DNA of 64,000 nt from Acidobacteriaceae bacterium (GTDB taxonomy: Bacteria; Acidobacteriota; Terriglobia; Terriglobales; Acidobacteriaceae). The stretch lies in assembly GCA_027449545.1 (NCBI GenBank), contig DAIDLI010000122.1, positions 1 through 64,000 of the forward strand, in the 5' to 3' direction. Position numbers and translations under genes: made by a program. Shown piece after piece: positions 22,520 through 48,075 of the stretch (position 1 is the stretch's first letter; every line of letters starts with the position of its first letter). The notes beneath the pieces were generated by a model. It was given only the letters and a program-made list of their open reading frames with translations. It ran no database searches and was not told the origin of the DNA.

Positions 22520-22528
22520 TGCCTATAC
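22520..22528 (-). promoter_or_regulatory. GTATAGGCA element upstream of the GH13 gene
   Basis: GTATAGGCA on the minus strand, 117 bases before the GH13 start and oriented toward it. A TATGCT at 22477-22482 could serve as -10, but no good -35 is spaced from it. This is the weakest promoter of the four sites carrying the element. Confidence 0.45.
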
Positions 22529-22622
22529 CAATCGCAGGTGCTTCGCCCAAGGAGACTGAGATCAGGGAAGAGACGGCTGCCGCGCAGAACGGACTTCAGC
22601 AGGACTCATGGACAAAGCAAGA

Positions 22623-22662
22623 GAGGGCTGTGTGAGTGGCATTCAATCCACAGGCAGCCCTC
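22623..22662 (-). terminator. Terminator hairpin after the TonB-dependent transporter
   Basis: GAGGGCTG (22623-22630) pairs with CAGCCCTC (22655-22662), extended by an inner TGTG/CACA pairing. It lies 12 bases past the stop of the transporter whose gene ends at 22675 and upstream of the GH13 gene. The T-run is weak. Confidence 0.5.
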
Positions 22663-22674
22663 CCTCTTCATGGC

Positions 22675-25600
22675 TTAGAAGCTCAGTCGCAGTGCGAACT
22701 CAATGTTGCGAGGCGGCCCCGCAGTCGCTGTAACAATTCCCGTAACACCAGGAAGACCCGCAGTTGGATTCGGGCCGTTGAATTGGGTTCGATTGAAGAG
22801 GTTGTAAGCCTGAGCCGTGAATTTGACCTTCATATTCTCTCCAATGCCGGTCTCCTTCGATAGGGCCATATCCCAGTTCATGATGCCATCCATCCGAAGC
22901 GTCGAATCCAGTCTGGACTCCGTTCCGAAGGCGGTAGGGGAGGTGGTGGGTGTGAAGCAGGCGGTATTGAACCAGCCATTGAGCGCGCGCGTGTACCGGG
23001 AGCCGCTTACGGTTTTGCGGCAGCCGGGAACGACGTCTGGGCGAATATACGCGCCAGGCGCCCAGATGAACCCATTGCCGGCGCCAAATTGCTGCATAAT
23101 CGGACTGGAAAACTCTACCATCCCGATAGGTGTGCCGCTCCGCAGCGTCGTAAGGCCCTGCAGGTTCCAGCCGCCAATCAGGGTGGAGATGACAGAGTTC
23201 GTGTCGTAGGCAAAAGCCCGGCCCTTGCCCAAGGGGAGTGGCAACACATACGCGAAGGTAAGGTTTTGCGGTATGTCGTAGGCACTCAGGGAGCGCTCTG
23301 CGCGGCCAATATTTGTGTTGTCCTGGACCTGACCGCTAAAGATATTCCCTTGATCCAGAAAGCTTGTGATATTGTCCGTGTTGGATATGAGCTTTGACCA
23401 GGTATATGCCCCAACGATCTGCCCGTCTGACCATAGCCGCTTATTGACCGAAATCTGCAACGAGTTGTAGCTGGAGAAGCCACGCCGCGGATCGTCGGCC
23501 AAGGCGCGGTCGTACTGCGGGAAGGGCTTCAACAAATACCCTGCGGCGACGGTGGGTTGAGACAAGGGCGAGGACGGATTCGTGATGGAACCGAAGAAAG
23601 GATTGGGTACCTGTGCTTGCAAGGCCGGAGATCCTAATCCAAAGTACTTGGTTTCGAGCTGGTTAACGTTCAGGTTGGATGCCGTCGCAAATCCCTGCAT
23701 GAGCAGATGAGTTCCCTTCGATCCCGCATAGGCGACAGTCAACGTGCCATTTCTCCCAATCTGCCGTTCGATGGCGAGGTTCCACTGCTGCTGATATGGA
23801 TAGCTCTCCCCCGGAACCCTCGATACGATGCTCGTGCCGTAGTAGTTTGCCAGGTTTGCCCCTCTGCCCGGGGGCAGGTTGAGGCCCTGCGGGAATGGAT
23901 TTGCGGTTGTGGCGTTGATCTGGTCCGGATTTCCGGTCGACACCTGGAACGAGTTGTAAACACCGGTGACGATGGTGTTAATGGGGGAGAAGTTCGGCCC
24001 ATCTTGCGCCAACGAAAACGGCAGATACGATAATCCGTAGCCCGCCCGAACCACGGTCTGTTCGTTCATGCGGTAGGCGAGGCCAATCCTTGGCGCAAAC
24101 AGCTTCCAGTGCAAATGGTCTTCGCGCTGGGAGGGCCACTGGGGACTTGCGACCAGAGCCAGGACGCCGCGCGCTTGCTGTGTGCTTCCCGTGATCGGCT
24201 GGGTATAAGAGGTTACAGTGCCAACCGTCGTTGTTAGATTCGGTAGGAAGACGGTATCCCGATTCTGAGCCTCAGAGTACATGCCGGGCTGGTCCCAGCG
24301 GAGGCCGAGCGTGGCCGTGAGTCTGTGAGAAACCTGGTAGGTGTCCTCGATAAAAAGTCCATAGTTCGTGAAGTACGCTCGGGAGCCGCCAACGTTCCCG
24401 AGATTGCTGCTCGCCGGGATTCCCAGCAGATTCGAAGCGAGGGCAGCGCCAGAGGCGGTAGGGGCAGATGGGCTTGCAGTTGCTTGATTGTCGTAGATCA
24501 GCGTAATGCCGCTCGTATCCGGATCAGAGATCCACTGGACGTGACGGATGTTCGCCCCCATCTTGATCTGATGTTTGCCGAGAGTCTTGATGATGCTTCC
24601 CGAGAGGGCGAGAATATTCTGGTGCCAGTACAACTGCGATCCGATGCCATTCGAAGCGGTGAGGGCGGTGGAAGGGAATCCGGTTGTTCCATTGAAGGTG
24701 GTCGACGGAATCGAGCCCGCACCGGTGGTCGCGGTCGCGGTCATTTGGCTTGGCAGATGGCTGTAGGCGGCTCCATACTTGCCCAGGTCGATGTTGGTGC
24801 TGTCGGGTGCTTCGTTCTGGAATATTCGAAGATAAGAGGCGCGAACGTCGGCCAGCGCGGTAGGGGTGATGGTGTAGCTGTTGCCCAGCACAGCTTCCTG
24901 ACTGTAAAGTCCTGTTGCTCCCTGTCCCTGGGTGTGTGTGCCCCATGCGTCGTAGGGGGTGCTGATGACCTTTGAGTACAAGTAGCGCGCAAAGAGCATA
25001 TCTTTGCTGCCGAAATTCTGATCGACGCGCCCGTCGTAAAGATCCTGAACGCCACCGGTCTTGAAGTGCGTGATGAAGTTGTTGATCAATCCCGGCTGGT
25101 TGGGAACAGGGAAGGTGTCCTTCAGGATAGTGAGCGCACTCGTGTCAAGCTGCGACGCACAAATTACATTCAGTTGCCCGTTGCAACTGAACTGCGGGTT
25201 TCCCGGCTGGCTGTGATCGTAAATTGGCGGGAGGCCAGTGGCAGAAAAGTCACCTGAAAGCTGAGCCGAAGTTGGGACGGTGGTTGTAGAGAGGACGGCG
25301 CTATGGGTGCGCGTGCCTTCATAGCCGAAGAAGAAGAATGTCTTATTGCGCCGGATGGGCCCTCCGACATTGAACCCGAACTGATTTTGAATGAGCGGAG
25401 AACGGGCGAGGCCAGCGTGATTGGAAAAGAAATCATTTGCATTCAGGACGGTATTTCGCAAATAGTCATAGGCGGATCCATGGAATTCGTTCGTACCGGA
25501 CTTGGTGGTGGTGTTGATGACTCCGCCTGCATAGTTGCCATATTCGGCGCTCACATTATTTGTGGCGACGCGAAACTCCTGCACGAAATCCTGGGAGACG

Positions 25601-26379
25601 ATGATACCGTTGACGTTGTTTGCGGGACCATTCGACGAGACCCCGTCAACGAAGAAGGCACTCTGGTTGCCAAATGCGCCACCTATAAAGTAATTGCCAA
25701 AGGCGATCGAGTTGGTTCTTGCTCCACCGGCCTGATCACCAGACGCAGTGCCATAGGTAGAGCCGCCAGCGCTCACGCCAGGAACCAGGGTCATCAGATT
25801 GTTCACCGTGCGGCCGCTGACCGGAATATTGGCGACTGTCTGCTGAGCAACTACAGACCCCAGCGAGGTGCTGTCCGTTTGCAGGGTGATGGCGTCGGCT
25901 CGCACTTCGACGGTTTCGGATACATTGCCCACCTCGAGGGTTGCGTCAACGCGCGAAGCAACATCGACGAGGACATTGACGTTATCCGCGATGAATCGCT
26001 TGAATCCGCTCTGTTCAATGTCGACCCGGTATCGCCCGGGAAGGACGTTGGCAAACAGGTAGTTGCCGTCGGCGGTGGTCTGGAGTGTGCGTACCTCATT
26101 CGTGCCGAGATTCGTTAATGTGACATGAGCTCCGACAACAGAGCCTCCGGTGGGGTCAGCGACAAAGCCGACTACAGACCCAAACCGGACTTGTGCTTCC
26201 AAGGGCGTTGAGCTTCCAACAAAGACATAGAGTAGGAGAAGGGCTGCAATGACAGGGCAGGTCATGGCGCGGATGGTGCGCTGCCGGCCTTGCGTGAGTG
26301 GGCGAGAAGGTTGTGACTTCGGAAAATCGAGTTTGTATTCGGAAGTATGCGTCGTGAGCTTCCACAGAGGCGAGTACAT
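22675..26379 (-). CDS. TonB-dependent transporter, Oar-like
   Basis: Outer-membrane transporter of 1234 residues. AGGAGG lies nine bases before ATG 26379. A long N-terminal stretch with the hydrophobic run CPVIAALLLLYVFVG (about 41-55) gives the signal peptide. The regulatory-like Ig domain (FGSVVGFVADPTGGSVVGA, about 65-145), plug (VDGVSSNGPANNV, TTKSGTNEFHG) and barrel ending LRLSF follow. Close blocks (YLRNTVLNANDFF, GWFNTACF, NWDMALSKET) show that it is a paralogue of the transporter at 50565. It has its own promoter with the GTATAGGCA element. Confidence 0.9.
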   Translation of the reverse strand: MYSPLWKLTTHTSEYKLDFPKSQPSRPLTQGRQRTIRAMTCPVIAALLLLYVFVGSSTPLEAQVRFGSVVGFVADPTGGSVVGAHVTLTNLGTNEVRTLQTTADGNYLFANVLPGRYRVDIEQSGFKRFIADNVNVLVDVASRVDATLEVGNVSETVEVRADAITLQTDSTSLGSVVAQQTVANIPVSGRTVNNLMTLVPGVSAGGSTYGTASGDQAGGARTNSIAFGNYFIGGAFGNQSAFFVDGVSSNGPANNVNGIIVSQDFVQEFRVATNNVSAEYGNYAGGVINTTTKSGTNEFHGSAYDYLRNTVLNANDFFSNHAGLARSPLIQNQFGFNVGGPIRRNKTFFFFGYEGTRTHSAVLSTTTVPTSAQLSGDFSATGLPPIYDHSQPGNPQFSCNGQLNVICASQLDTSALTILKDTFPVPNQPGLINNFITHFKTGGVQDLYDGRVDQNFGSKDMLFARYLYSKVISTPYDAWGTHTQGQGATGLYSQEAVLGNSYTITPTALADVRASYLRIFQNEAPDSTNIDLGKYGAAYSHLPSQMTATATTGAGSIPSTTFNGTTGFPSTALTASNGIGSQLYWHQNILALSGSIIKTLGKHQIKMGANIRHVQWISDPDTSGITLIYDNQATASPSAPTASGAALASNLLGIPASSNLGNVGGSRAYFTNYGLFIEDTYQVSHRLTATLGLRWDQPGMYSEAQNRDTVFLPNLTTTVGTVTSYTQPITGSTQQARGVLALVASPQWPSQREDHLHWKLFAPRIGLAYRMNEQTVVRAGYGLSYLPFSLAQDGPNFSPINTIVTGVYNSFQVSTGNPDQINATTANPFPQGLNLPPGRGANLANYYGTSIVSRVPGESYPYQQQWNLAIERQIGRNGTLTVAYAGSKGTHLLMQGFATASNLNVNQLETKYFGLGSPALQAQVPNPFFGSITNPSSPLSQPTVAAGYLLKPFPQYDRALADDPRRGFSSYNSLQISVNKRLWSDGQIVGAYTWSKLISNTDNITSFLDQGNIFSGQVQDNTNIGRAERSLSAYDIPQNLTFAYVLPLPLGKGRAFAYDTNSVISTLIGGWNLQGLTTLRSGTPIGMVEFSSPIMQQFGAGNGFIWAPGAYIRPDVVPGCRKTVSGSRYTRALNGWFNTACFTPTTSPTAFGTESRLDSTLRMDGIMNWDMALSKETGIGENMKVKFTAQAYNLFNRTQFNGPNPTAGLPGVTGIVTATAGPPRNIEFALRLSF

Positions 26380-26516
26380 CTCCTTAATCCTCCTAACGTG
26401 CAGGGCGGCAATCCGGAGCAGTTCCTCTGTGCGAGGGCAATTCAGACGTGCCGCCCATTAGGGACCCGGAGCAAGTGTCGGACGAGTCCAGCCGGTAATG
26501 GGCATCTTGGGGTTCA

Positions 26517-26582
26517 CTTGTAGGCCTTTCCTGATTGCTTGTCAACAAATCGTGACGCAAACTGTCACAAAGTTGCCTATAC
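26517..26582 (-). promoter_or_regulatory. Promoter with GTATAGGCA element for the TonB-dependent transporter
   Basis: On the minus strand: GTATAGGCA (26574-26582), 28 bases, TTGACA (26540-26545), 17 bases, TACAAG (26517-26522). The -35 is perfect and the spacing optimal. The -10 matches the consensus at four of six bases. The transporter start is about 140 bases further on, leaving a moderate leader. Confidence 0.6.
26552..26568. promoter_or_regulatory. GTGAC-N7-GTCAC inverted repeat just upstream of the -35
   Basis: Perfect 5-base arms with a 7-base spacer, lying between the GTATAGGCA element and TTGACA of the transporter promoter. The size and symmetry fit a dimeric regulator site. The spacing (N7) differs from the CRP consensus. 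Confidence 0.4.
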
Positions 26583-26701
26583 ATAGATAGTTGCTTGGAA
26601 GTGGGTCATCCGCCTCATGTGACGGCAAGCACCTTTTGATGCGGGATGGCCATTCCATTTTGGAACAAAGCGACCGGAGGTGCCTTGGAGGGAGGGGCGG
26701 C

Positions 26702-26729
26702 ATCCGTAAGGGAAAGCTGTCTTACGGAT
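26702..26729 (-). terminator. Hairpin after the second TonB-dependent transporter
   Basis: ATCCGTAAG (26702-26710) pairs perfectly with CTTACGGAT (26721-26729) around a 10-base loop, 52 bases beyond the stop at 26781. There is no T-run on the minus strand, so termination is likely but not certain. Confidence 0.45.
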
Positions 26730-26780
26730 ACAGGAAATGGCAGGATGAGCGGAGATTCGGCTCTCGATGGTGCGGGAGCA

Positions 26781-29700
26781 CTAGAACGTAATCCGAACTC
26801 CCAGTTGTGCTGCAAACGGGATGCCCACGGTGGTGCCCGGACCGAAGAAGTCGCCCAGCGCACCCTCGGGAATCTCAAGTTGCTTCAAGCTGGTGATGGG
26901 CGCTGTCTGCGAGCAGTCGGCGACGGTACAGACCTGGGTGATGTTGGTGATGCCGTCCTGATTGGGCTGCATCTGGGCGGCGGGGACTGGCAGTTGGGCG
27001 ACGTTGGCGGCGAAATTTGCTCCGGGATTATTGCGATTGAAGAGATTGAAGAACTCGACGAATGGCTTGATGTGCCAGCGGTCGCGGATGGTGAAAGGAC
27101 GGGTGATGCGGAGGTCCGTCTGGAGATACGGAGTTCCCCGGAACTGGTCCAGGCTGGTGTAAACGCCGTTTACCCAGATGCGCGCGGAACTGCCAGCGTT
27201 GGTGATGGTGAAGGGGCGAGCGCTTTCCATCTGCGACAGGCCGCTCAATTCCAATCCACCGCGCACGGTTGCGGTGCCGGCAAGCACGATGCGGTGCCGT
27301 ATATCTTCGCCCGAGGGACCGTAATCGCCGGGGCCAAAGGCGTCCAGTTGTCCGGCGCGGGGACCGCTCTGCAATGGGCAGACGCCATCGACATAATCGA
27401 AGAGCTCGCCCAGCAGGCAGCCCCAGGTCTGAGCCTTGGCGAGCTGGTAGTTGGCGATCAGGCTGAACCGGCGCATATGACCTTGCAGGTGAAGCATGAG
27501 AGCGTTGTAACTGGAGCGGTTGTCTGACTCAAAGACATTGACATTCGGGACGACGTTGGCTTGGTCGACGGAATATTGCGGGTCCGAAGTGCCAATTAGC
27601 GGAGTGAAGAGATTCGCGGCACTGGAGTAAGGGAAAGCGCGGTAGCCGTGATTGCCTTGTTCGTGGATGTAATCGGCGCTGACAAGCCAATGCTGATTGA
27701 ACGCGTGTTCCATGCCACCGGTGATGTGAATGGCGTAAGGGGTCTTATAGGAGGAGCCGATGAGGTTCCCGGTGGCGGCAGAGCCGCCTTGCAGGCAGCC
27801 GGAGCCGGTCAGGGCGTAAGTACCGGGGCCACCGGCAAGCTGACAAGTGCCTGTAGTGGCGTTGGTACTGTTGATGCCCTGGAATGCGGTGGCCCACCCG
27901 TTCTGGGCGAGATCTGCGTAGTAGAGGCCAATGCCCGCGCGGAGTACGGTGGTCCGGCTGCCGCGAGGTGCCCAGACGATGCCAAGCCGGGGTGCGATCT
28001 GCTTGTCATCGTCGTGAGGAGCTTTGGGCACAAGGGGAATCTTGAGCGCCTGCAGGGTGATGTACGCGCTGTTCTGGAGTTGCGTGCGGCCTGATGCTGT
28101 GAACAGTCCAAATGTAGCCTGGTAGCGCAATCCGTAGTTCAAAGTGAAATGAAAGGGAGCGCGCCAGGAGTCTTCCGCATACATGGCAAGACGCTGTACG
28201 TTCTGCGCAAAGTTGCCGTCACTTGCCGGGGTGTAGGTGCAGGTGATGCCGGACTCGGCGCTGGGCTCGGGATTGCACTGAGCCGAAGGAGCGACGTCGT
28301 AGAAGGGCAGAGGAGAGGTGATGCCACCGCAGTCCGGTCCGGGCTGTCCTAGGTAGCAGTCGGGGTTGAATGGATATTGGACAATCTGTTCGGCGTTCGA
28401 GGCGAACGCACCGCTCAGGACAGGTTCATGGATGAAATCGATACCGAATTTGAGAGCATGGCTGCCGAGGACGTGGCTCAGGTCGTAGCGGGCCTGGTAC
28501 TTATCTTGATTCCGCAGGTCTGGAAAGAACGTGACCGGAGTTGCGAACTGATTGTCTCCAAAGGTCTCGAAGCCAGAGACGGTGAGGGCGGTAGAGCTGA
28601 AGGGGAAGGCCAGAGCGAAGCCAAGGTTGGAGTTGCGTGTCTGGGTAAGATGCAGAAGACTCGCGGCCAGGACTAGATTGCCAACCCAGGTGGGCTTGAT
28701 GGCATAGGAGTTACTCAGCACCACATTCCAGTAGTTGTTGTGCGTCAGCAAACCGGTGGAAGGGAGAGTTCCTTGCTCGACCAGATCGTTGTGTGTGGTG
28801 TAAGAGTCTTCGGAGGTGCGAAGGAACCAGTGCGACCGGTCCGATTGAGCCCAGTCGAAACGCAGGGAACCCAGAGAGTCGCGGAATGGAATGGGAACGT
28901 TGGGAGGAGTTGCAATGGAAGAAACACCGGAGATGAGGCCCTGTGAAGCAATCTGGCTGAGAGCGATGAACTGGCCCATGCTTGCGGGGCTATAGGCGAT
29001 GCTTGCGTTTTCGTGCACGTACTCGAAGGAGGTGAAGAACCAGAGCCTGTTTTGGGCGATGGGGCCCCCAAGAGTGGCAACATAGTTTTGCCGGGAGAAT
29101 GGCTGCTTGGGGTTGTGGACGCAGGCGCCATTGGCGCAGGTCACAGCAGGATTCTCGATGGGAAAGCGGGCATTGAGCGCTGCTGCCCGTTCAAAGAATG
29201 CCGCGTCGCCGTGCCAGCTGTTGGTGCCACGCTTGGTGGTGATGACGACGGAGCCAGCGGTTGTCCAGCCGGTATCTGCGTCTTCATTGGAGGTTCGGAC
29301 GGCGAATTCCTGAATTGCATCGGGCGAGAAGTTTTGCAGGAAGCCGCCGATCCAGTCATCCGAGTCGTCGGCCCCATCCACGGAGAGCGCGTTATTCAGG
29401 CCGGAGCTGCCACCTGTGGAGACGGCGGTGATGCGCGCCTTGGTTGGGTCCGAAGGCTCGACCGGCTCTGTGCCGGGTACGAGATAGGCGATATCGGCGA
29501 AGCTGCGGTCGGGCAGGGGCATGGTCTGGAGATCGCTGCTGCCAACGATGCCGCCCCGGACTGCGCTGGTGGTGTTGACGGGGGCCTCGGTGATGGAAGA
29601 GGGGCCTCCCTGCACGTTGACCGTTTCGCTGCTGCCCTCTGGCTTGAGCGTAATCCTGACGTCCTGCACAGTGCTTACCGCGACGTCCACGGCGGCGGTA

Positions 29701-30008: not shown

Positions 30009-30120
30009 TCCATCAAGATCTCTCCCAATTCTCTAACCGCTGAGACGGGAGGTCCTTACTCTTGAAACAGAGCTTGCTTCGGCTGTATGGCCCCGGCTAT
30101 CGCGCCTAAGCATTCAGTAG

Positions 30121-31794
30121 TCATACGCGAAACAGTTCCGCGCCGGAGGTCAGGCGGTTATCAGAAATGGGAGCGAGGTCCCACACCGTCATCGAGCGCA
30201 GTTGCGCTGAGCCGCCCTCTGCAAACAGCCCGATGCCCAGACTAGCAGGGCTCAGAGGGTAGACACGATCCGAGAGAGAAGCACGGCCATTGGCGAACGT
30301 CTCCAGCACGGATGCGTCGACGAAGACGCGCAGCCGCAGTGGCTCGGTCCCCAGCTTCAGAGCTCCTTGCGTAACGCCGCGGTTGGCGAAGATGCGTGAG
30401 GGGGTAGCTGTCTCGGGATCCTTGCTGGAGTGGGTTGTATCGGAGAAGAGCATCTGCGTCTCCCTGTCGTAGCCGATGAGCGTATGTTCGGATCCATCGG
30501 CCGTAGAGCGGACCCGCAATCCGCATTGCTTTGCGTCACTGGGATCGATCTCCGCTTTGATTTCGACGCAGTCCCCGGAGATGCCCTTCAAGAGCAGGGG
30601 GCTGGATGCGTCGATCTTTTGCGGAGCCACGTTGCGCGCCCGCCGACGCAGCACCCTCAACTCATCAACAGGATTCATCCCCAACATTCCGTCGCTTCGC
30701 AGGGTCAGGTGTTTGGGAAGGGACATGACGCCAGCCCATCCGGCCTCGACCTGCGCCTTCATGCTGCGTTTCTCGTGCAGCCATGCCCACCAGATGCGCC
30801 TTCCCTGGTCATCTTCCATCGTCTTTTGCGCGTAGGCTGCGGTTCCGAAGTCGATCCGGCCCTCATTTTTCCGGTGGAAAAAGTGATTGGAGTAGCTGCC
30901 GGTGAGGTACGAGTTCCCTGCTGCAACGAGCAGGATCGGTTGTCCCTGGAGGATGAAGAAGTCAGGGCACTCCCACATGGAGCGAAACGCCATCGCCGGC
31001 CCATGCGCGTTGGGGTTCGGCCTGGCCACTGCCAAGGGGTGCAGGTATTTCCAACTGCGGAGATTTTTGGAGGTGTAAAGCAGAGCCATTCCACCTTTGC
31101 CGAGTTCTCCGCAGCCGATGGTCATATACCAGTCAGCGCCTTCTCGCCATACGCAGGGGTCGCGCCATCCTACGGCCTTGATGCCCTCAGGCGGCGCGGC
31201 CAGCACGGGATCCTGCGGAACCTTGTTCCACTTGAGCAGGTCGAGATCGTTGGGATCGGCAGCAACAGCCACCATCTGCCGTTCGGGGACGAACCCCGCT
31301 GCGCGTGCGGCACGCTCCGACTCCTGCGACCATGTAGCGCCCGTGTACACGATGGTGGGGACACCGTTGTAAACCACGGCGGAGCCGGTCCAGCAGCCGT
31401 CCTTATCGGGCCCTCCTGGAGTGGGCGCCAATGCAATGCCGAGATTTTTCCAGTGGACCATGTCCGTGGATACCGCATGCCCCCAGTACTTGGTAGCTGA
31501 GTTCGAGATGACGCCAGCGTACTGGTAGAACATGTGGTAACGGCCTTTCCAGTAGAGAGGGCCGTTGGGATCGTTCATCCAGTTGGCCGGAGGCATCAGG
31601 TGATATTGCGGACGGTGCCGGTCGTGCGCCAGGCGATTGCTGGAGTTCTGGCCGAAGAGGGCATGGGAGGATGCGGCCAAGGTAGCAGCGGCGATGAAGT
31701 CGCGGCGGGTGATGCATTTTGAAGCCTCGATTGAGCTTGAAGCGGTGCTGTATCCCCCGGGCAAAACTCCAGTTTGGATGTCTCGATATTTCAT
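30121..31794 (-). CDS. GH32 beta-fructosidase (levanase/invertase type)
   Basis: Hydrolyses terminal beta-fructosyl bonds in sucrose, levan or inulin; 557 residues. The N-terminus has a twin-arginine signal (ITRRDFIAAATLAASSHAL, about 28-46), so export is folded via Tat. The catalytic triad of GH32 is complete: Asp75 in NWMNDPNG (nucleophile), Asp212 in WRDP (transition-state stabiliser) and Glu275 in WECPDFF (acid/base). The C-terminal beta-sandwich ends EGGSAQLRSMTVWDL. The adjoining transporter downstream and the PfkB sugar kinase of the same run fit a fructan pathway. Confidence 0.92.
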   Translation of the reverse strand: MKYRDIQTGVLPGGYSTASSSIEASKCITRRDFIAAATLAASSHALFGQNSSNRLAHDRHRPQYHLMPPANWMNDPNGPLYWKGRYHMFYQYAGVISNSATKYWGHAVSTDMVHWKNLGIALAPTPGGPDKDGCWTGSAVVYNGVPTIVYTGATWSQESERAARAAGFVPERQMVAVAADPNDLDLLKWNKVPQDPVLAAPPEGIKAVGWRDPCVWREGADWYMTIGCGELGKGGMALLYTSKNLRSWKYLHPLAVARPNPNAHGPAMAFRSMWECPDFFILQGQPILLVAAGNSYLTGSYSNHFFHRKNEGRIDFGTAAYAQKTMEDDQGRRIWWAWLHEKRSMKAQVEAGWAGVMSLPKHLTLRSDGMLGMNPVDELRVLRRRARNVAPQKIDASSPLLLKGISGDCVEIKAEIDPSDAKQCGLRVRSTADGSEHTLIGYDRETQMLFSDTTHSSKDPETATPSRIFANRGVTQGALKLGTEPLRLRVFVDASVLETFANGRASLSDRVYPLSPASLGIGLFAEGGSAQLRSMTVWDLAPISDNRLTSGAELFRV

Positions 31795-31819
31795 GTGACC
31801 TCATTCGCGATGCTCGGGG

Positions 31820-31960
31820 TTGAGGGAGGCGCGAAGCGCTGCACTTTGCACCATCCAGGATTCAGGCGGCCAGTGCCTTGGCAACCGATTGAGGGGATGC
31901 CTGCACGCTGGGCGACTGCCGTCAGTGCTAGGCGCTCGCCCGCATCAGGTGTCGAGCGGG
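31820..31960. repeat. Decayed duplicate of the 3' end and trailer of the BNR gene (copy A)
   Basis: Collinear and about 80% identical, with a single one-base gap, to 33070-33207. That segment includes the last codons of the BNR gene at 33161 and its trailer. Here the coding part is broken by stops. The two copies flank the alpha/beta hydrolase gene as direct repeats. Confidence 0.6.
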
Positions 31961-32006
31961 GCGCAATGGTGAACCTCCGACGGTATGCAAAGGCGGGGCC
32001 CGCCGG

Positions 32007-33005: not shown

Positions 33006-33069
33006 ATCGAGCCCCCCTTCCCAATGTTCCATTCCGCGGAGGTCCCAGAATCCTGCTACTGAGACCATT

Positions 33070-33207
33070 TTGAGGGCGGCGCGAAGCACTGCGTTTTGCG
33101 CCACCCGAGATTCAACCGGCTCTTGCCTTGGCAACTGATGGAGGAAGCCCATAAGCCAGGCTATTTGTAGTCAGCGATAGGCACTCGCCCATACCAGGTA
33201 CCGCGGA
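33070..33207. repeat. Direct repeat (copy B) covering the end of the BNR gene and its trailer
   Basis: Intact counterpart of 31820-31960. The part above 33161 is coding (end of the BNR gene) and the rest is non-coding. On the minus strand the trailer holds GGTGGCGC paired with GCGCCGCC (one G-T), which could serve as a terminator stem. Confidence 0.6.
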
Positions 33208-38388: not shown

Positions 38389-38578
38389 GGGTCCTCCTTC
38401 AAGTCTGTGACTCCTGCCTACCACAGCGGCTGCATGCAAGCCGGTGCAGGCCTCTCCGCCAGATGAACTCACGTGTCCGTGGCAGGAATGAGTTCCACGG
38501 CGTCCTTGTATTTCAGCCGTCGCGGTTTTCACCTATGCGATCACGCCGCGTTGCCGCGGTAGCGCAGGCTGCTTGCTC

Positions 38579-39508
38579 TTATGCGCTCACCTTGGTATTG
38601 CCGGGACTGCCAAGATTCAAAATCTCCTCCAGGCGATCCCGGGATATAACCGGCGTGGCGCCCACTTGCGTTGCCACCCATGACGCAAAGCTGTTGGCGG
38701 CATCGCTCATCTGTTCCAGCGGCCGCCCCTGCATCCAATAATGGGCCACACAGGCGGTAAAGGCATCTCCGGCGCCGATGGCGTCCGCAACCTGAACGCG
38801 CAACCCGGCATGCCGAACGGCTTTCGTTGCAGAGACGAGAAGGCTGCCACGCGCGCCTTTGGTTACGCAAACCAGGTCCAGATCAAACTTGTGGCGCAGG
38901 TTGGTTGCCAACTCTTCTTCACTCGCGCCCTTGATGTCGAGCAGAGCCGACACCTGAATCAATTCGGCATCGTTCAGTTTGAGGACGTTAGCAATTTGGA
39001 ATGACCGGCGCAGCGTCTCCGCGGTGTAGAACGGTTCGCGCAGGTTTGCATCGCAAATACGAAGAGTGCCGGCCGGCGCGCTCATAAGAAAGCGTTCGAT
39101 GGTCGCGGCGGAAGTTGGTGAGCGCTGCGCGAGAGATCCAAAGCATATGGCGTTGGCGCGGACGGAGAGCTCTTGCCATGCCGGAGTCCAGTCGAGGTAA
39201 TCCCAGGCGACCGCATCCTCGATCGAAAATTGTGGCTGGCCCCCGGCATCGAGCCGGACAATGGCTGTGCCAGTCTTGTGCAGGGCATCCTGCTGTAGAA
39301 AACCAGCGTCCATTCCACGTTCCTGAATGACCCGCCGCGCTTCCCATCCCAGTTGATCGTCTCCGATCCGACTGGCGATGATGCCCTCATTTCCCAGTAC
39401 CTGGGCCATGTAAGCAAAATTTGCGGGAGCGCCGCCCAAAACCTTCCCTGAAGGTAGAAGGTCCCAAAGAAGCTCACCCAACCCGACCATTACCGGATGC
39501 GTGCTCAT
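38579..39508 (-). CDS. PfkB-family sugar kinase, probable fructokinase
   Basis: Cytoplasmic ATP-dependent sugar kinase of 309 residues, the usual ribokinase-family size. It has the N-terminal signature LGGAPANFAYMAQVLG with GELLWDLLP (the fructokinase-type GE-x-LWD start). The C-terminal signature is DAIGAGDAFTA with the catalytic Asp. GAGG lies very close to the ATG, so the start is not certain. With the GH32 enzyme in the same run, phosphorylation of fructose is the best guess. A strong promoter carrying the GTATAGGCA element lies about 530 bases upstream. Confidence 0.88.
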   Translation of the reverse strand: MSTHPVMVGLGELLWDLLPSGKVLGGAPANFAYMAQVLGNEGIIASRIGDDQLGWEARRVIQERGMDAGFLQQDALHKTGTAIVRLDAGGQPQFSIEDAVAWDYLDWTPAWQELSVRANAICFGSLAQRSPTSAATIERFLMSAPAGTLRICDANLREPFYTAETLRRSFQIANVLKLNDAELIQVSALLDIKGASEEELATNLRHKFDLDLVCVTKGARGSLLVSATKAVRHAGLRVQVADAIGAGDAFTACVAHYWMQGRPLEQMSDAANSFASWVATQVGATPVISRDRLEEILNLGSPGNTKVSA

Positions 39509-40347
39509 TCCTCTGTCACCGTTTGCAGCTCAATGGATATCGGAGTTGGAATCTCAATTTGTTCTAACCGGTGCTTTAGGTCAAATCCCATGATCTTTTC
39601 AGGCACCGCAGGACTTACTCCTCAACGGAAAGCAAGGTCTATGCAATCAGGTGCTCAATATACGTCGAGCCAAGATTGCACCAGGGCTTCTGCCGGGCAG
39701 CGCAATTGTCGTTGGAAAGCGAAACTCGGTGGGCATATGCAAAGAATCCAGCCCTCTCTGCCAATTCAGCAAACGCGGGCGCGCGACGCCGAATCCGGAA
39801 TGTACCTACACAACAGCCTGACAATCGAACTAATTGCTAAATCTGAAAACATTCGAAAGCAAATTCGCCAATCGCCTGCTTTCGTCCGCAGAACACTTCC
39901 ATTCTCGTTACCCTGCCGTTCCTTGTCTGCCGTTGCCCCATTCCATCTCAGATATCCGCTCAAGGGAGGAGGGGTTTTGTGAGCATAATCAGCCTCATCT
40001 CACGGTCAAAAGTAATACTCCACAGTTGCCCTTAAAGACCACTTTACGTGTTGTGAACGCGGCACTGTCAAGCGATAAGCTAGGCAAATCAGGAAAAGTT
40101 GCCTATACGTTCCGCAGCTCTCGAAAGTCTACGGGCCGCGTTGTGAGTGCTGAAAGAAATGGAACCGGCGCAGTCGCAGACAAGTTTTACCGGAGGCGCG
40201 CTTTCTTGGCTGCGCGCGGAAAGCGAAGCTCGAAGAACGCACTCCCTTTCGTCATCGTTGCTGCCGGGCGGGCGCCTTGGATTCGAAACCAGGGCGCCCG
40301 TGCTAGCGGGGAGCCGCGCCTAGGCAAGTGTGCAGTGCAGTCGATGT
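39509..40347. other. 840-base region: promoter and long leader of pfkB, no supported gene
   Basis: Short frames on both strands show no domain or ribosome site. The only clear signal is the promoter at 40041-40108 on the minus strand. It implies a leader of about 530 bases before the kinase, or a small undetected gene or regulatory RNA in between. Confidence 0.45.
40041..40108 (-). promoter_or_regulatory. Promoter with GTATAGGCA element upstream of pfkB
   Basis: On the minus strand: GTATAGGCA (40100-40108), 28 bases, TTGACA (40066-40071), 19 bases, TAAAGT (40041-40046). The element and its next five bases (ACTTT) are the same as in the promoter at 26517-26582, as is the 28-base distance to the -35. 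Confidence 0.6.
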
Positions 40348-41787: not shown

Positions 41788-41850
41788 GTGCAAGATCCTG
41801 CCTTTCTGCTGGGAGGGGATTCGTCCCGGGTTGATCTGTAAGAGTGCGAT

Positions 41851-43026
41851 TTAGCCGTGGGCCACTGCCATGGCCTCCTGCTTGTCCTCTTCCTTGCGGA
41901 GGAGGTTACGAGAGACGAGGAAGATTGCGGTGATGATGCAGGAGAGAATCGGCAGCAACAGGAGACCGCGGCGGATTCCTGAGGCATTGGCACCGGAGAG
42001 CCAGCCAATCACCGGTGAGCTCAGCATGAAACCGCTGAATCCGCAGGTGATCGCGAAGCCGATTGCCGTTCCAGATTGCTTTTTGAAGAGCTTTCCTACA
42101 ATCGCGATGGTGGTGGGGAATACCGGAGCCATTGCCATGCCGGTGAAAAATACGACGGTTCCCGTCATCCATGCCGACATGGGATAGAGAACCAAATAGG
42201 TGGTGCAGATCATCGCGATCGAGCAAGCCGTCGCAACGACGAAGGGAGGGACGCGCCAGAGCACGCTCGTGGCCACCACGCGGCCGACCAACAACCCACA
42301 GGCGAAGCCAAGGGACAGGATGTTGAGAGCCATCGTGCTCGACATTCCGGTGCTGATGAGATATTTCGGCAGCCAATTCCAGATGCCGAATTCGCAGGCG
42401 GTGTAGAGCAAGGTTATGGCGGACAAAATATAGAGTGCGGAATGTGTGAAGACGGTGTGTCCTGCCTCTGCCTCCCGTGACCCGGTAGTTCGGGACTGTG
42501 GGATGGGCGTGAAGATCACCACTGCCAGAACTGCCAGGGAAGCGGCCGCACCGAAGAGCGCCGTGTGGCTCGCGTTTGCGGCAAGCAGGTTCCCCGCAAC
42601 AAACGGGGTGATGAGCCCGCCCAGGCCGGAAAATACGTTGAGAAAATTAAGCGCTGCGGCGCGGCGCTTGTCGCTCACATCGCTGGTGATCGCATTTGCG
42701 CCCACGATGACGATACTGCCGCCGCAGCCGAGAATGAACATCGCGAGCGCCACCAGCGACATGCTCGTGGGATGAAGCAGCATCATGAGGCCCGCGATTG
42801 TCGCGCAGAGGCCCAGAATCACACCCAGCTTCTTGCCTTTACGGTCCATGAGCGCGCCGGAGAGAACCGACATGCCCGCCAGCCCCAGCCCTTGCGCCAG
42901 GCCGATATATCCAATGTCCGCGTTGGTAAGGTGCAGGGAATCGGCCAGTCCAGGGATGATCGTCCCCAGGAGGGAGGACAGCAGACCGTAGACGAAGATG
43001 ACGAGGCACGAGACAAAGATCAACAT
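41851..43026 (-). CDS. MFS transporter
   Basis: Inner-membrane permease of 391 residues with about 12 hydrophobic segments and the MFS loop motif GALMDRKGKKLG between helices 2 and 3. The size and the second-half block FTGMAMAPVFPTTIAIVG fit the sugar-transporting FucP/NagP-like branch, but the substrate is uncertain. It is first in a two-gene unit with the aldehyde dehydrogenase and diverges from the tannase gene. Confidence 0.88.
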   Translation of the reverse strand: MLIFVSCLVIFVYGLLSSLLGTIIPGLADSLHLTNADIGYIGLAQGLGLAGMSVLSGALMDRKGKKLGVILGLCATIAGLMMLLHPTSMSLVALAMFILGCGGSIVIVGANAITSDVSDKRRAAALNFLNVFSGLGGLITPFVAGNLLAANASHTALFGAAASLAVLAVVIFTPIPQSRTTGSREAEAGHTVFTHSALYILSAITLLYTACEFGIWNWLPKYLISTGMSSTMALNILSLGFACGLLVGRVVATSVLWRVPPFVVATACSIAMICTTYLVLYPMSAWMTGTVVFFTGMAMAPVFPTTIAIVGKLFKKQSGTAIGFAITCGFSGFMLSSPVIGWLSGANASGIRRGLLLLPILSCIITAIFLVSRNLLRKEEDKQEAMAVAHG

Positions 43027-43527
43027 GATGGATCTGCCGTCCTATTTCTTACGAACACCCAGCGGATAGGTACTGCCGGACCAGTTGCTCCTTAAGTTCA
43101 CGTGCATGCGCCGGTGAGTTCTGGTGCGCTGCGTTGATCGGGAGCCTTTCAGTGTGCAGCCGGACGAAGCTCTGTCTCCGTCCAACAACGACTCATGCCA
43201 GCCTATGATCATGGGTCCGACACTGCGGGTCAAGCCCCGGAACGATGGCTATTCCATGAAATATGGCTGTACGGCCACGCAAGTGCGACTAAGATCTCGT
43301 GAATTATCTGCTACTTACCTTGGCGGTCGATGGCGAACTGCCTGGCAATCACGGCAAATCATCGCACTTAGAAAGTTCCATAGGCATCAGGCGCATTCTG
43401 CGAATGCGGAGTTAATATGCTCGGAGATGTAACTCAGCCATTGGACATCCAAATGCCCCGAGAGCTTCCATGCCTTCCAGCTGGAATGCGGATCTGACCC
43501 GTTCAAAGTGCACGAAGAAGAGGCAAG
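43027..43527. other. 500-base divergent control region (MFS / tannase)
   Basis: No gene is supported. It contains a perfect operator-like inverted repeat, GCATTC-TGC-GAATGC (43393-43407), 121 bases before the tannase start. Just left of this is CATAGGCA (43379-43386), a near match to the GTATAGGCA element. A clear -35/-10 pair was not found. Confidence 0.45.
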
Positions 43528-45072
43528 ATGAAGCGGCGGTTCCTGAGTTGCGGGATAGGGGTGGTAATCCTGGCGGCGTCCTGTTCCTGGGGGCAGCAGG
43601 CGATGTCCTGTGCGAAGCTGATGAGCTTCAAGGCTCCGGACGTGGAGATTACCAAGGCAGTTGCCATCCCCGCGGGCAGCGTAGCGCCAACGCCTCCGGG
43701 GGTGCCGGTGGGTGGGCCGCTTCCTGCTTACTGCCGTGTAGAGGGCATCATTGGCAAGCGGGTGGGAGTGGGGGGAGAAGAGTTCGGCATCCGCTTTGCA
43801 CTGGCCATGCCTGACCAATGGAATGGTGATTTTCTGATGCAGGGCGGGGGCGGCAGTAACGGAGTGGTGCTGCCGCCGACCGGCTATATTGCCTCAGGGA
43901 CTGAGCCGGCTCTGACGCGTGGTTACGCAGTGCTCAGCAATGACACCGGGCATCAGGCGCACAGACGCGGGTTCGACTTCAGCTTTCAAAAGGACCAGCA
44001 GGCCTATCTTGATTTTGCCTACCAGGCGAACGCCCGTGCGGCAGGAGTGGCGAAGAGAATCATCGCGCAGCGCTATGGAAGACCGGCCGCCTATTCCTAC
44101 TTTGCCGGATGTTCGACAGGCGGTCGGGAAGGCATGATCCTCTCTCAGCGTTTTCCCACGGTTTTTAACGGGATCATCGTGGGCGATCCGGCGATGCGCA
44201 CCGGGTTTTCGAATCTTGCGATTGGCAAATGGATCCCGGCGGCATACAACCAGGTCGCGCCCAAGGACGAACACGGCAAGCCGCTGATCGCAGAGGCAAT
44301 TACCGACAGCGATCGCAAGCTCATTCTGAGTGCGTTGATGAAGCAGTGTGACGCGCTGGATGGGCTGGCGGACGGCATGATCTTCAATCCGCTGGCCTGT
44401 CATTTCGATCCGGAAGAGCTGGCATGTAAGCCGGGGCAAACCGCTTCCTGCCTGCCTCCCGCCAAGGCTGCGGCTATTCACAAGGCCTTTGCCGGACCGA
44501 AGACCTCAGAAGGGATCCAGGTTTATCCAGGATTTCTTTACGATTCCGGCATCGCCAATCCCGGTCCGATTCGCGGCCTGCTGGTTCCGGGCCCTGGGCT
44601 CTTTGGGCCGGCGCCTACGCTCATGCACGTGGACGTAGAGGCGGATGCGCTCAAGGCATCGCAGCCGCTTACGGATTCTACCTACACGAATCTCACAACC
44701 TTCGAGCAGCATGGAGGAAAGTTGATCTTCTTTCATGGCGACAGCGATCCCTGGTTTTCGCCGCTCGATACCCTCAACTACTACAAGGAGATGGCGGCGG
44801 ACAATGGCGGTCTCGACGCCGTCTCCAAGTGGAGCCAGTTTTATCTGGTTCCGGGCATGAGCCACTGCGCGGGAGGACCATCGCTCGACGAGTTCGATCT
44901 GGTGGACGCGCTCGCGCAATGGGTGGAGAAGGGCACCGCGCCACAGTCGGTGGTTTCTACAGGACGGGCTTTCCCTGGGCGGAGCAGACCGCTATGCCCC
45001 TATCCGGAACATGCGCAATACACGGGCCACGGCGACATACAACTTGCTTCCAGCTTTGAATGCGTTCCGTAA
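43528..45072 (+). CDS. Tannase/feruloyl esterase family protein
   Basis: Secreted 514-residue esterase that releases gallic or ferulic acid from plant polymers. AGAGG precedes ATG 43528. The signal peptide ends near SWGQQ. Family marks are SYFAGCSTGGREGMILSQRFP (Ser nucleophile in GCSTGG), the lid region with Cys pairs (CDALDGLADGMIFNPLACHF, CKPGQTASC), FFHGDSDPWFSP (Asp) and LVPGMSHCAGGPS (His next to Cys), which gives the Ser-Asp-His triad bridged by a disulfide. It opens the plus-strand esterase group. Confidence 0.93.
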   Translation: MKRRFLSCGIGVVILAASCSWGQQAMSCAKLMSFKAPDVEITKAVAIPAGSVAPTPPGVPVGGPLPAYCRVEGIIGKRVGVGGEEFGIRFALAMPDQWNGDFLMQGGGGSNGVVLPPTGYIASGTEPALTRGYAVLSNDTGHQAHRRGFDFSFQKDQQAYLDFAYQANARAAGVAKRIIAQRYGRPAAYSYFAGCSTGGREGMILSQRFPTVFNGIIVGDPAMRTGFSNLAIGKWIPAAYNQVAPKDEHGKPLIAEAITDSDRKLILSALMKQCDALDGLADGMIFNPLACHFDPEELACKPGQTASCLPPAKAAAIHKAFAGPKTSEGIQVYPGFLYDSGIANPGPIRGLLVPGPGLFGPAPTLMHVDVEADALKASQPLTDSTYTNLTTFEQHGGKLIFFHGDSDPWFSPLDTLNYYKEMAADNGGLDAVSKWSQFYLVPGMSHCAGGPSLDEFDLVDALAQWVEKGTAPQSVVSTGRAFPGRSRPLCPYPEHAQYTGHGDIQLASSFECVP

Positions 45073-45080
45073 TCAGCGGT

Positions 45081-45100
45081 GATCGCCAACGCAGGCGATC
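45081..45100 (+). terminator. Short hairpin after the tannase gene
   Basis: GATCGCC (45081-45087) pairs with GGCGATC (45094-45100), 8 bases past the tannase stop. There is no T-run, so it is a weak candidate. Confidence 0.3.
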
Positions 45101-45200
45101 GTCCGAGTCGCAATGCCCTCGACGCCTCGTCCGAGAGGCATCCCGGGCCGGCTCTGTTCTTTGCAGAGTCGCTAGATCGCCACAGAAGGGGAGGATCGGA

Positions 45201-46901
45201 ATGAGAAGAACGGATCTGAATCGACGCGAGCTCTTGCTGGGCGGCGGCATCATGACCGCCGGAGCGTTTCTTCCAGCAACGGCCGCTGCATTGGGCGGAA
45301 ATTCAGCAAGCGCCTATCCTGATCGCGCCCCATCCAGTGGCGATCCCATTGCCATCGGCAAAGAGATTGCGATTGTCGAAACCCGGTATGGCAAGGTCGC
45401 GGGATATACCGACCGTGGTGTGCTCGCGTTCAAAGGGATTCCCTACGGGGCGACCACGGCCGGCGCGGGACGTTTCAAAGCCCCGAAACCGCCGGCCGCT
45501 TGGACCGGAGTACGCAGCAGCCGGCACTTCGGGCCTGAATCGCCGCAGGCCTACCGAGCGATCTGGGAAAACGATGAGGAGGGCTTTCTCTTCCAGTGGG
45601 ATTACGGCCGCCAGAGCGAGGATTGCTTGCGGCTGAATGTCTGGAGTCCCTCGACGGAAGGCACGCACCGTCCGGTGCTCGTCTACCTGCATGGCGGCGG
45701 CTACTCGGTAGGGTCCAGCTCGGAACTGAAGATGTTCGACGGCGTCCATCTCGCCAGGCGTGGCGATGTCGTGCTGGTTACGATCAATCACCGGCTGAAC
45801 GTGGTTGGCTATTTCGACTTATCGGCTTACGGTGACGAATTTGCCGAGTCGGGCAATGCGGGAACGCTCGATACGGTTCTAGCTCTGCAATGGGTCCATG
45901 ACAACATTGCCCAGTTTGGAGGCGACCCGGGGAACGTGATGATCTTCGGGCAGTCGGGCGGTGGCGGAAAGGTGTGCACCCTGATGGCCACGCCGGCCGC
46001 GCGCGGACTCTTTCACAAGGCCGCCGTGGAAAGCGGTGCGACCATTCGGATCGGAACTCAAGATCGCAGCCGCGAACTGGCCGAGCGCACCTTAAAGCGC
46101 CTGGGGATTGCTCCCAGCGAGGTACGCACGCTCCAGCAGATGCCTTATGCGCAATTGGAGGCCGCAGCGAGCGCAGTAATTGCCGAAGCGCGGCCGAAGG
46201 GCCCGTTCGATATGAGGCATCTGAACCGGTACCTGGGTTACGTGCCGGTGGTGGATGGGAAGGTGGTCACCCAGCAGCCATTCGATCCGGCTGCGCCGGC
46301 CAGCGCTGCTCCGATTCCGCTTCTGATTGGCAACACGCTGAACGAGATGACGAATGGCATCAATCATCCGGACGCGTTTGAGATGACCGAGGCGCAGTTG
46401 CAGGAGAAAGCCAACCAGAGCTTCAATGGGCATGGCACGGAGGTGATCGCCAGCTATCGCGAGCTATATTCCAATGCCAATCCGTTTCAGCTATGGTCCA
46501 TCCTCAATACGTCGCGGATGCGCAGCTCAAGCCTGACGCTGGCGGAAACCAAGGCCAAGCAGCCGGCACCTGTCTATGTCTACCAGTTTGCCTGGCAGAC
46601 GCCCGTTCTCGACGGCCGTCCCATGGCTTTCCATTGCGCCGAGCTTCCCTTTGTGTTCGATAATCCTGACCTCTGTGAACACATGACCGGCGGAGGAGAA
46701 GCAGCGCATGTGCTGGCGGGCAAGGTCAGCCAGGCATGGATCCATTTTGCTCGCTCCGGCGATCCGAATCACTCCGGAATTCCACACTGGAATCGCTTCG
46801 ATACGAGCACCAAGACAACCATGGTGTTCGACGATACCTGCGAAGCAAAGGACAACCTTGATACGAAGCAACTGAATTTGATCGAGGGCCTGTCCGTCTA
46901 G
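45201..46901 (+). CDS. Type-B carboxylesterase, Tat-exported
   Basis: A 566-residue esterase of the cholinesterase-like family. ATG 45201 has GGGGAGG upstream. Twin-arginine signal NRRELLLGGGIMTAGAFL. Marks are KGIPYGATTAGAGRFKAPKPP, SEDCLRLNVWSP, VLVYLHGGGYSVGSS (oxyanion) and the nucleophile elbow FGQSGGGGKV; the usual final Ala-Gly after the Ser-Gly is replaced by Gly-Gly. The late His is in FHCAELPFVF. It lies 128 bases after the tannase and is likely to act on aromatic or acyl esters with it. Confidence 0.88.
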   Translation: MRRTDLNRRELLLGGGIMTAGAFLPATAAALGGNSASAYPDRAPSSGDPIAIGKEIAIVETRYGKVAGYTDRGVLAFKGIPYGATTAGAGRFKAPKPPAAWTGVRSSRHFGPESPQAYRAIWENDEEGFLFQWDYGRQSEDCLRLNVWSPSTEGTHRPVLVYLHGGGYSVGSSSELKMFDGVHLARRGDVVLVTINHRLNVVGYFDLSAYGDEFAESGNAGTLDTVLALQWVHDNIAQFGGDPGNVMIFGQSGGGGKVCTLMATPAARGLFHKAAVESGATIRIGTQDRSRELAERTLKRLGIAPSEVRTLQQMPYAQLEAAASAVIAEARPKGPFDMRHLNRYLGYVPVVDGKVVTQQPFDPAAPASAAPIPLLIGNTLNEMTNGINHPDAFEMTEAQLQEKANQSFNGHGTEVIASYRELYSNANPFQLWSILNTSRMRSSSLTLAETKAKQPAPVYVYQFAWQTPVLDGRPMAFHCAELPFVFDNPDLCEHMTGGGEAAHVLAGKVSQAWIHFARSGDPNHSGIPHWNRFDTSTKTTMVFDDTCEAKDNLDTKQLNLIEGLSV

Positions 46902-46973
46902 GAATGCGGGGTAAGCCGGTTCTCGCGATAGCCCCATGAGCATTATGATCTTGATCCCTGTGAGGAGATTCTC

Positions 46974-47984
46974 GTGAAGAAATGCGGCATCCTGCTGGCA
47001 ATCCTCAACCTTGCGGCCATTCTTCTGGGTGCTGGCAGACTCCAGGCACAACAGTCGGCTGACTTCCCGCGCCAGCTTCCCCCACGGATTCGGCAGTATC
47101 TGGAACAGATAACGCCTCCTCCGACGGTTTCACTTCCGCTCTACGGGGCCGCTCCGATTCCCAATTCCAAGCCGACGCCGAATGAGGAAAAGATGACTGG
47201 CTGGGGCCAGATGATCGATGTCTCGCGGCCTGAACTGGAAGTGTTTTTACCGGCCAAGGTGAAAGCCAATGGCGCCAGCATCATCATTTTCCCAGGCGGC
47301 GGCTATGTCGGGCTTACCTGGAAGACTGAAGGGCCGTCGATGGGGCGATTCTTTCAGGACTATGGCATCGCGGCGTTCGTGGTGAAATACCGTCTCCCGA
47401 GCGAGAAAACGATGGCTGATCCGTCGCTCGGTCCCATTGAGGATGCCGAGCAGGCGATGATTCTGGTTCGCGAACATGCAAAGGAATGGCATCTTGATCC
47501 GAACCGGGTCGGAATCATCGGCTTCTCCGCCGGGGGACATCTCGCTTCAACCTTGGGAACGCATTTTGGGACGGACTATGTTGCAAACCCGGAGCACATC
47601 AACCTGCGGCCCGACTTCATGATCCTCTGCTATCCGGTTATCAGTATGGATCCAGCGATTGCGCATATGGGGTCGCGCATTGCGCTCCTCGGCCAGCATC
47701 CCACCGCTGACAAGGTGCGGCTCTTTTCCAACGAGCTTCAGGTAACCAAAGAGACGCCGCCGACGCTCCTCCTGCATGCCGCCGATGACCGGCTGGTGGA
47801 CGTCGACAACAGCGTCCGGTTTTTCGAGGCGCTGCGCCACGCAGGCGTGCCGGTCGATATGACGATCTTTCGCAAAGGGGAACACGCATTCGTGCTTCTC
47901 CCCAGGGATCAGTGGCTGTCGATCGTCATTGGCTGGATTCAGGGAAATGGCTGGACGAACCAGAAGGCCAAACAGCCGAACTAG
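46974..47984 (+). CDS. Secreted alpha/beta hydrolase, acetyl-esterase-like
   Basis: A 336-residue exported esterase. GTG 46974 has GAGGAG six bases upstream. The signal peptide (GILLAILNLAAILLGAGRLQAQ) is clear. Motifs are IIIFPGGGYVGLTWKTEG (oxyanion), VGIIGFSAGGHLASTLG (Ser), LLHAADDRLVDV (Asp) and KGEHAFVL (His). It is paralogous to the gene at 34864 and is the last of three consecutive esterases, followed by the sigma-factor promoter. Confidence 0.85.
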   Translation: MKKCGILLAILNLAAILLGAGRLQAQQSADFPRQLPPRIRQYLEQITPPPTVSLPLYGAAPIPNSKPTPNEEKMTGWGQMIDVSRPELEVFLPAKVKANGASIIIFPGGGYVGLTWKTEGPSMGRFFQDYGIAAFVVKYRLPSEKTMADPSLGPIEDAEQAMILVREHAKEWHLDPNRVGIIGFSAGGHLASTLGTHFGTDYVANPEHINLRPDFMILCYPVISMDPAIAHMGSRIALLGQHPTADKVRLFSNELQVTKETPPTLLLHAADDRLVDVDNSVRFFEALRHAGVPVDMTIFRKGEHAFVLLPRDQWLSIVIGWIQGNGWTNQKAKQPN

Positions 47985-48019
47985 TGACTTTTGCCCCAAT
48001 CCAGCGGCCCGGAGCAATT

Positions 48020-48075
48020 GTATAGGCAGGAATCTGATTCGCCGTCTTGACAGCGCCGGATTGAGTTCCTAGTAT
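48020..48075 (+). promoter_or_regulatory. Promoter with GTATAGGCA element upstream of the ECF sigma gene
   Basis: GTATAGGCA (48020-48028), 18 bases, TTGACA (48047-48052), 17 bases, TAGTAT (48070-48075). Compared with the other two promoters the element is ten bases, one helical turn, nearer the -35. The sigma-factor start is about 300 bases downstream. Confidence 0.6.

Follow-up and report, generated by a model that had tools for sequence, protein, structure and literature searches.

A proposed palindromic operator near sucrose genes of an Acidobacteriaceae contig, and a GntR/LacI chimera that probably binds it

We argue that a nine-base word, GTATAGGCA, which stands before four genes in a 64,000-nucleotide stretch of an Acidobacteriaceae genome (the window, being the first 64 kb of the 175-kb contig DAIDLI010000122.1, here C122), forms the core of a palindromic operator 12 bp long, and that a chimeric GntR/LacI regulator whose gene lies on this contig would bind it and control genes of sucrose uptake and breakdown together with a sigma factor. 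We put the probability of this reading at roughly 0.8, with both the binding and the ligand deduced from sequence. Acidobacteria are abundant in soil and, to our knowledge, their sugar regulons are largely unmapped; what we offer is a candidate for the regulator, a consensus for its operator and a list of genes that can be tested, which together link sugar sensing to a module of sigma factor and transporter. A 9-mer spotted by eye has been turned, through motif learning from other genomes, into a proposed operator.

The word itself is present in four exact copies, at 22520-22528(-), 26574-26582(-), 40100-40108(-) and 48020-48028(+), all of them intergenic and facing, in that order, a GH13 gene, a gene for a TonB-dependent transporter (TBDT), pfkB and the gene of an extracytoplasmic function (ECF) sigma factor. 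Positions, orientations and neighbours are as a preliminary description of the window had given them, and its claim of more copies than chance (it expected about 0.5) holds as well: dinucleotide shuffles of the window gave a mean of 0.13 copies, and four were reached in none of 100. Is a count of four, then, enough? The raw count alone is unremarkable because 1093 strand-collapsed 9-mers are present at least four times in the window and this one ranks only 191st among them by Poisson; across the genome the bare word shows no enrichment, with 10 copies, a chance level, against 13 for its reverse. Its company is another matter, for it is common to 3 of the window's 14 TTGACA hexamers, and no other 9-mer is common to three. 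The clustering of the word and its link to TTGACA are not chance.

What might bind it? The route to the regulator ran through a relative, G015, in which a TBDT homologue (46%), a GH32 gene and pfkB lie together with a GntR/LacI-type gene, whose homologue on our own contig (62%) is found at 83441-84544, 19 kb past the end of the window. Its protein joins an N-terminal GntR winged helix (PF00392, E 2.2e-19, residues 5-68) to a C-terminal ligand domain of LacI/GalR type (PF13377, Peripla_BP_3, E 3.6e-28, with sequence matches to the structures of PurR and CcpA), and among the 25 models listed of the 40 NCBIfam models that it matched, none reaches its cut-off. Adjacent genes encode a sucrose phosphorylase, which scores 416 bits against the TIGR03852 cut-off of 334, and a sugar porter, at 324 bits against the 238 of TIGR00879. 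The regulator is 100% identical in the close relative G085 and present in 26 of 80 genomes of the genus at E 1e-40 or better; in 18 of the 24 other genomes that have it (G000 and G085 excluded; a hand count from two homologue tables), a pfkB homologue lies within about 3 kb. Because the regulator adjoins sucrose phosphorylase and, in most relatives that have it, lies near a fructokinase-like gene, it probably binds sucrose, fructose or a compound derived from one of them.

The link between regulator and word comes from a model learned in other genomes. The training set was the 300 bases upstream of the regulator at 24 other loci; our own genome and G085 were left out, as were loci L068 and L074 (duplicates) and L190 and L191 (own species). 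An expectation-maximisation search was seeded with random words from these 24 promoters; the resemblance of the motif had already been noticed by eye, and the search was not supplied with it. The best palindrome that it learned was ATGTCTAGACAT or its extension, with a log-likelihood at width 14 of 66.9 (in the scoring run 23 promoters were kept and one was dropped as a near-duplicate), whereas 12 shuffled sets, each given 120 starting words rather than 200, reached 26.4-39.8. When eight subsets of 16 promoters were drawn at random from the 24, seven gave the palindrome again. As a single test, the fairest is how the model ranks the word itself: GTATAGGCA falls in the top 28 of 262,144 9-mers, a score that the window's 1092 other recurrent 9-mers all fall short of.

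Scored against about 59,000 windows in 531 kb drawn from other contigs of the genome, all four sites that contain the word reach p values of 1.5e-3 or better at widths 14 and 16, whereas models from the 12 shuffled training sets give geometric-mean p values of 0.08 to 0.97. The model also found sites that had not been seen by eye. The candidate operators of the window are as follows, with background p values at width 12.

22519..22530, minus strand: upstream of the GH13 gene, around the first copy of the word (12.0 bits, p 8.5e-5, without TTGACA)
26573..26584, minus strand: upstream of the transporter gene TBDT1, around the second copy (15.4 bits, the best of the 175-kb contig; 0 of about 59,000 background windows)
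39635..39646, minus strand: second, promoter-proximal site upstream of pfkB (12.0 bits, p 0.004 for the 300-nt promoter, row L046)
40099..40110, minus strand: distal site upstream of pfkB, around the third copy (11.0 bits, p 2.2e-4, conserved in G085)
48018..48029, plus strand: upstream of the ECF sigma gene, around the fourth copy (13.1 bits, p 1.7e-5)
50468..50479, no strand assigned: upstream of the transporter gene TBDT3 (13.2 bits; 0 of about 59,000 background windows)
61414..61425, no strand assigned: 66 bases before an in-frame ATG (61491) of an esterase gene (14.7 bits)

Sites of at least 11 bits number nine between 20 and 84 kb of the contig, with one elsewhere on it, and the background rate in the 531 kb of other own-genome sequence is 1.45 per 64 kb. 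All but one of the nine are intergenic, in a region where intergenic DNA makes up 10.5% (the site at 39635 is called so by ignoring an opposite-strand open reading frame, 39497-39982, that has no Pfam match), and the ninth, at 33123, lies inside a gene. Half of the eight, those at 39635 (pfkB, proximal), 50468 (TBDT3), 61414 (esterase) and 72941 (a TBDT gene outside the window), lack GTATAGGCA. Promoters of pfkB outside the training set point the same way: a site at p 0.015 or less is present in 7 of 16 near the regulator and in 1 of 17 away from it, where L192, L193, L198, L202 and L210 were taken as regulator-linked, the second pfkB copies L066 and L067, on other contigs, were not, and our own and the G085 rows (L046, L047) and duplicates (L204, L209) were left out.

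We therefore read the preliminary description's central proposal, a shared regulator site that defines a carbohydrate regulon with a sigma factor in it, as supported, because the word matches a model learned elsewhere and that model finds further sites before related genes; the site, though, is a 12-bp palindrome of GntR type, and the regulon is larger. A dimer of the regulator would bind an operator with the learned consensus above and the typical local form TTGTMTAGGCAR, of which there would be at least eight within about 60 kb—before the GH13 gene, three TBDT genes (one outside the window), pfkB (two), the ECF sigma/anti-sigma pair and the esterase gene—with weaker sites at the regulator's own gene.

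Conservation was followed at pfkB and at the regulator's own promoter. The pfkB of G085 is 94% identical to ours, and the pfkB element is identical there in 42 of 43 bases, with the 250 bases upstream at 40-84% in 25-base blocks and the blocks from the element down to 39878, where the match ends, at 96-100%. The site in the regulator's own promoter, TTGTATAGGCTG at contig positions 83362-83373 within AAGTTGTATAGGCTGG, is the same in G085 at 12 of 12 bases, with the nine preceding 25-base blocks at 64-88%. A TTGTAT-17-TTAATG, read by eye, is present in that promoter, which suggests that the regulator's own site lies on the -35. Transcription from the TTGACA promoter would give pfkB a leader of more than 500 nt, whose first part (39878-40070(-)) is, at 96-100%, above the 94% of the pfkB protein in G085; the leader folds worse than shuffles (z +2.16) and has no Rfam match, as is true of the whole window at gathering thresholds.

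The spacing to TTGACA deserves its own account. On re-counting, the gaps reported after three copies of the word were confirmed (TBDT1 28, pfkB 28 and ECF 18 bases), and the GH13 copy has no TTGACA; TBDT1 and pfkB have 14 bases in common, GTATAGGCAACTTT, at equal distance from the hexamer. These promoter elements are listed here.

26540..26545, minus strand: TTGACA, putative -35 of the TBDT1 promoter (gap 28)
40066..40071, minus strand: TTGACA, putative -35 of the distal pfkB promoter (gap 28)
48047..48075, plus strand: TTGACA-17-TAGTAT, predicted promoter of the ECF sigma gene (10 of 12 consensus positions)

The ECF promoter is the only one to pass in scans of 38500-50600 and 22400-26800 for -35/-10 consensus, scans in which promoter-like sites were no more numerous than in shuffles, and the -10 elements of the TBDT1 and pfkB promoters are poor. 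In the TBDT1 promoter (26545-26582(-)), a perfect GTGAC-N7-GTCAC inverted repeat, seen by eye and listed as a terminator-like stem, lies between element and TTGACA; none was seen by eye at the other three sites of the word.

How far does this arrangement reach? The genome-wide check that had been proposed, for the word near TTGACA, was run with the pattern GTATAGGCAN{5,35}TTGACA, which has three matches in the 4.43-Mb genome, all in the window, with none for the reversed control; elsewhere it occurs in 0 of 35 other genomes of the genus and 2 of 24 more distant ones, and the reversed pattern in 3 of 59. The looser TMTAGGCR N18-34 TTGACA has four matches in our genome, the three above and one more on this contig at 77670(-), against three for the reversed control, and shows no excess over that control across 80 genomes of the genus. 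Allowing TTGACT adds a match at 72944(+), upstream of the TBDT gene outside the window, whose product is the nearest to TBDT1 (48% identity) among 8 scored of 75 own-genome candidates. In 60 shuffles of the contig, 59 had no match to this TTGACA/TTGACT pattern and one had a single match, against five observed, three of which had themselves suggested the pattern. Only our genome and G085 show the operator arranged with TTGACA in this way. The helical phasing that had been read into the gaps, 18 and 28 being one turn apart, is real at three sites, and two sites outside the window stand at 29; the GH13, TBDT3 and esterase sites and the regulator's own operator have no such spacing.

What would the protein do at these sites? 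We lean toward a repressor, relieved by sugar, as most likely, because the operator lies on the -35 in several orthologue promoters: in L198, L199, L203, L208 and L211, read by eye, it holds TAGACA, TCGACA or TTGACA, with a -10-like word 17-18 bases on. That the operator holds a -35-like hexamer there also makes autorepression likely; an activator, as in the preliminary description, is one possibility among others. At TBDT1, distal pfkB and ECF, an intact TTGACA follows 18 or 28 bp after the operator, whose centre falls some 59 or 69 bases upstream of the probable start, and there the regulator may act by fixed-phase activation or by cooperative repression from two sites. A class I activator site at about -69 or -59, from which the protein would touch RNA polymerase while keeping a constant helical phase to the -35, would account for gaps of 28, 28 and 18, for the 29 and 29 at the two sites outside the window (one of them 30 in the relative) and for the TTGACA at four of these five promoters (TTGACT at the fifth); we think it possible, on the weaker side of even, since the operator's coincidence with a -35-like hexamer in several orthologue promoters fits repression and four sites (GH13, TBDT3, esterase, regulator) are without the spacing. 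A little less probable still are paired operators of the AraR kind, bound cooperatively, with one site upstream and a second on the -35. The TBDT promoter of G015 has just that look, with two model matches 35 bp apart, one of them on the -35; GTCTTGAC is found at the -35 of ECF and of the outside TBDT; and among the contig's 60 TTGAC(A/T) hexamers, those of the outside TBDT and TBDT1 rank 4th (5.8 bits) and 6th (3.2 bits). The -35 sites of the arm-domain gene (described below), pfkB and ECF are low, at 0.2, -4.4 and -6.5 bits (ranks 13, 23 and 27 of 60), so that a second operator on TTGACA has support at no more than two of the five promoters. A wide inverted repeat, GGCA..TGCC some 15 bp apart, was also considered at pfkB and the outside TBDT as one large operator and rejected, its second arm being unconserved in G085 at 77670 and unclear elsewhere.

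The identity of the protein can be doubted too. Since GTMTAKAC is, according to PMC4494728, a general consensus of the family, another GntR protein of the genome could bind the sites and leave the contig's regulator a bystander; this we hold to be unlikely, for the sites cluster within about 60 kb of that regulator and the model was learned from the promoters of its orthologues. Least probable by far is a mere chance recurrence of a 9-mer, which has on its side the genome-wide count of 10 against 13 and is opposed at once by the TTGACA association, the match to the operator model, the clustering on the contig and the conservation in G085.

Several results count against an operator of the contig's GntR/LacI chimera and temper our confidence in it. 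The four site p values are not independent because the sites have nine bases in common, and two non-palindromic models were weaker at them (p 2.1e-3 to 1.8e-2); one of the eight promoter subsets gave another word and no signal. A best site of at least 14 bits is present in only 12 of the 24 orthologue promoters, training data though these are, and 9 of the 16 pfkB promoters near the regulator are without a site at p 0.015. Two further copies of the word that fell in the genome sample (contigs C47 and C123) reach 11-12 bits as well. The regulator's own site is moderate (palindromic models give p 2.5e-3 to 3.6e-2) and the one before the arm-domain gene weak (7.7e-3 to 3.4e-2). Finally, the GH13, TBDT1 and ECF sites cannot be footprinted because the assembly of the relative lacks them: in G085 the GH13 gene has a match of only 69%, the TBDT1 gene only short pieces at 63-65%, and the contig breaks before the ECF site.

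The genes of interest within the window, and their family matches, are these.

20619..22436, minus strand: GH13 gene (PF00128, E 4.6e-119)
22675..26379, minus strand: TBDT1, Oar-like TonB-dependent transporter (PF25183 and PF13620)
30121..31794, minus strand: GH32 sucrose/fructan hydrolase (PF00251; TIGR01322 at 267 bits, under its cut-off of 356)
38579..39508, minus strand: pfkB-family sugar kinase (PF00294; best NCBIfam match fructokinase NF006957 at 90.6 bits, under its cut-off of 450)
48379..49125, plus strand: ECF sigma factor (PF04542 and PF04545; TIGR02937 at 65.5 bits, over its cut-off of 42.9)
49122..50438, plus strand: putative anti-sigma factor with zinc finger (PF13490)
50565..54083, plus strand: TBDT3 (PF25183)
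61491..62750, plus strand: esterase gene (PF00756 in open reading frame 61443-62750; in-frame ATG at 61491)

For the ECF sigma protein, a search of the genus gave no close orthologue, the best being at 36%. Many esterases (tannase, carboxylesterase, GDSL and alpha/beta hydrolases) lie between 32007 and 47984, near GH32 and pfkB, and from this crowd one might speculate that the substrate is perhaps an acylated sucrose or a plant ester. A DUF772/DDE transposase lies near the contig start (79-1464(-)).

Outside the window, at C122:77073-77588(-), is a gene for a protein of 171 aa with only the arm-binding domain of an integrase (PF13356). It is intact in G085 (L115:13573-14088) at 71% identity, with a dN/dS of 0.22 over residues 21-112; many other matches in the genus lie in open reading frames of about 400 aa, as long as a complete integrase, and this one looks like a retained stand-alone DNA-binding domain. 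Its promoter has the form TTCTAGGCA..TTGACA, both ends conserved in G085. On account of that promoter, the protein was once considered as the regulator; it was given up once the GntR/LacI gene was found, and its site scores weakly. A fuller scheme, in which the sucrose-sensing chimera directly controls the module of ECF sigma factor, anti-sigma factor and TBDT, acting as autorepressor at its own gene and as phase-dependent activator elsewhere, in a regulon that may include the arm-binding protein, is one that we regard as doubtful. If it were true, a cell-surface sigma cascade would stand under a cytoplasmic sugar regulator.

Has anything of this kind been seen before? Among the open-licence matches listed, judged by title or opening of the abstract, we found no acidobacterial sucrose regulon with a GntR/LacI regulator and a sigma factor, nor a related use of GTATAGGCA, which is weak evidence of absence. 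The nearest likeness is AraR of Bacillus subtilis, which has the same build as the regulator here, a GntR helix-turn-helix joined to a GalR/LacI-type ligand domain, and whose operators, according to PMC4218819, are GT..AC palindromes, at some promoters paired and in phase, with AraR's own gene in the regulon. AraR differs in its consensus, GTaCGTAc against GTMTAGRC here, and in its effector, arabinose against sucrose genes; neither that core nor arabinose genes were found, the neighbours being sucrose phosphorylase, sugar porter and pfkB, and the site nearest to the AraR core is TTGTATGTACAG, near the sucrose phosphorylase gene. The learned palindrome fits the NyGTMTAKACNy of HutC-type GntR operators, as given in PMC4494728, with the one-base deviation that the four sites with the word have G instead of A in their right half (GTATAGGC), and the ligand domain here is LacI-like. 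LacI-family sucrose regulators (TIGR02417, fruct_sucro_rep) are alike in sugar-binding domain and sucrose gene neighbourhood; they differ in that our regulator scores 41.8 bits against a cut-off of 389.55 and has a GntR, not a LacI, DNA-binding domain. The types of regulator and operator are thus already known, and the unusual part is the sigma factor in the regulon.

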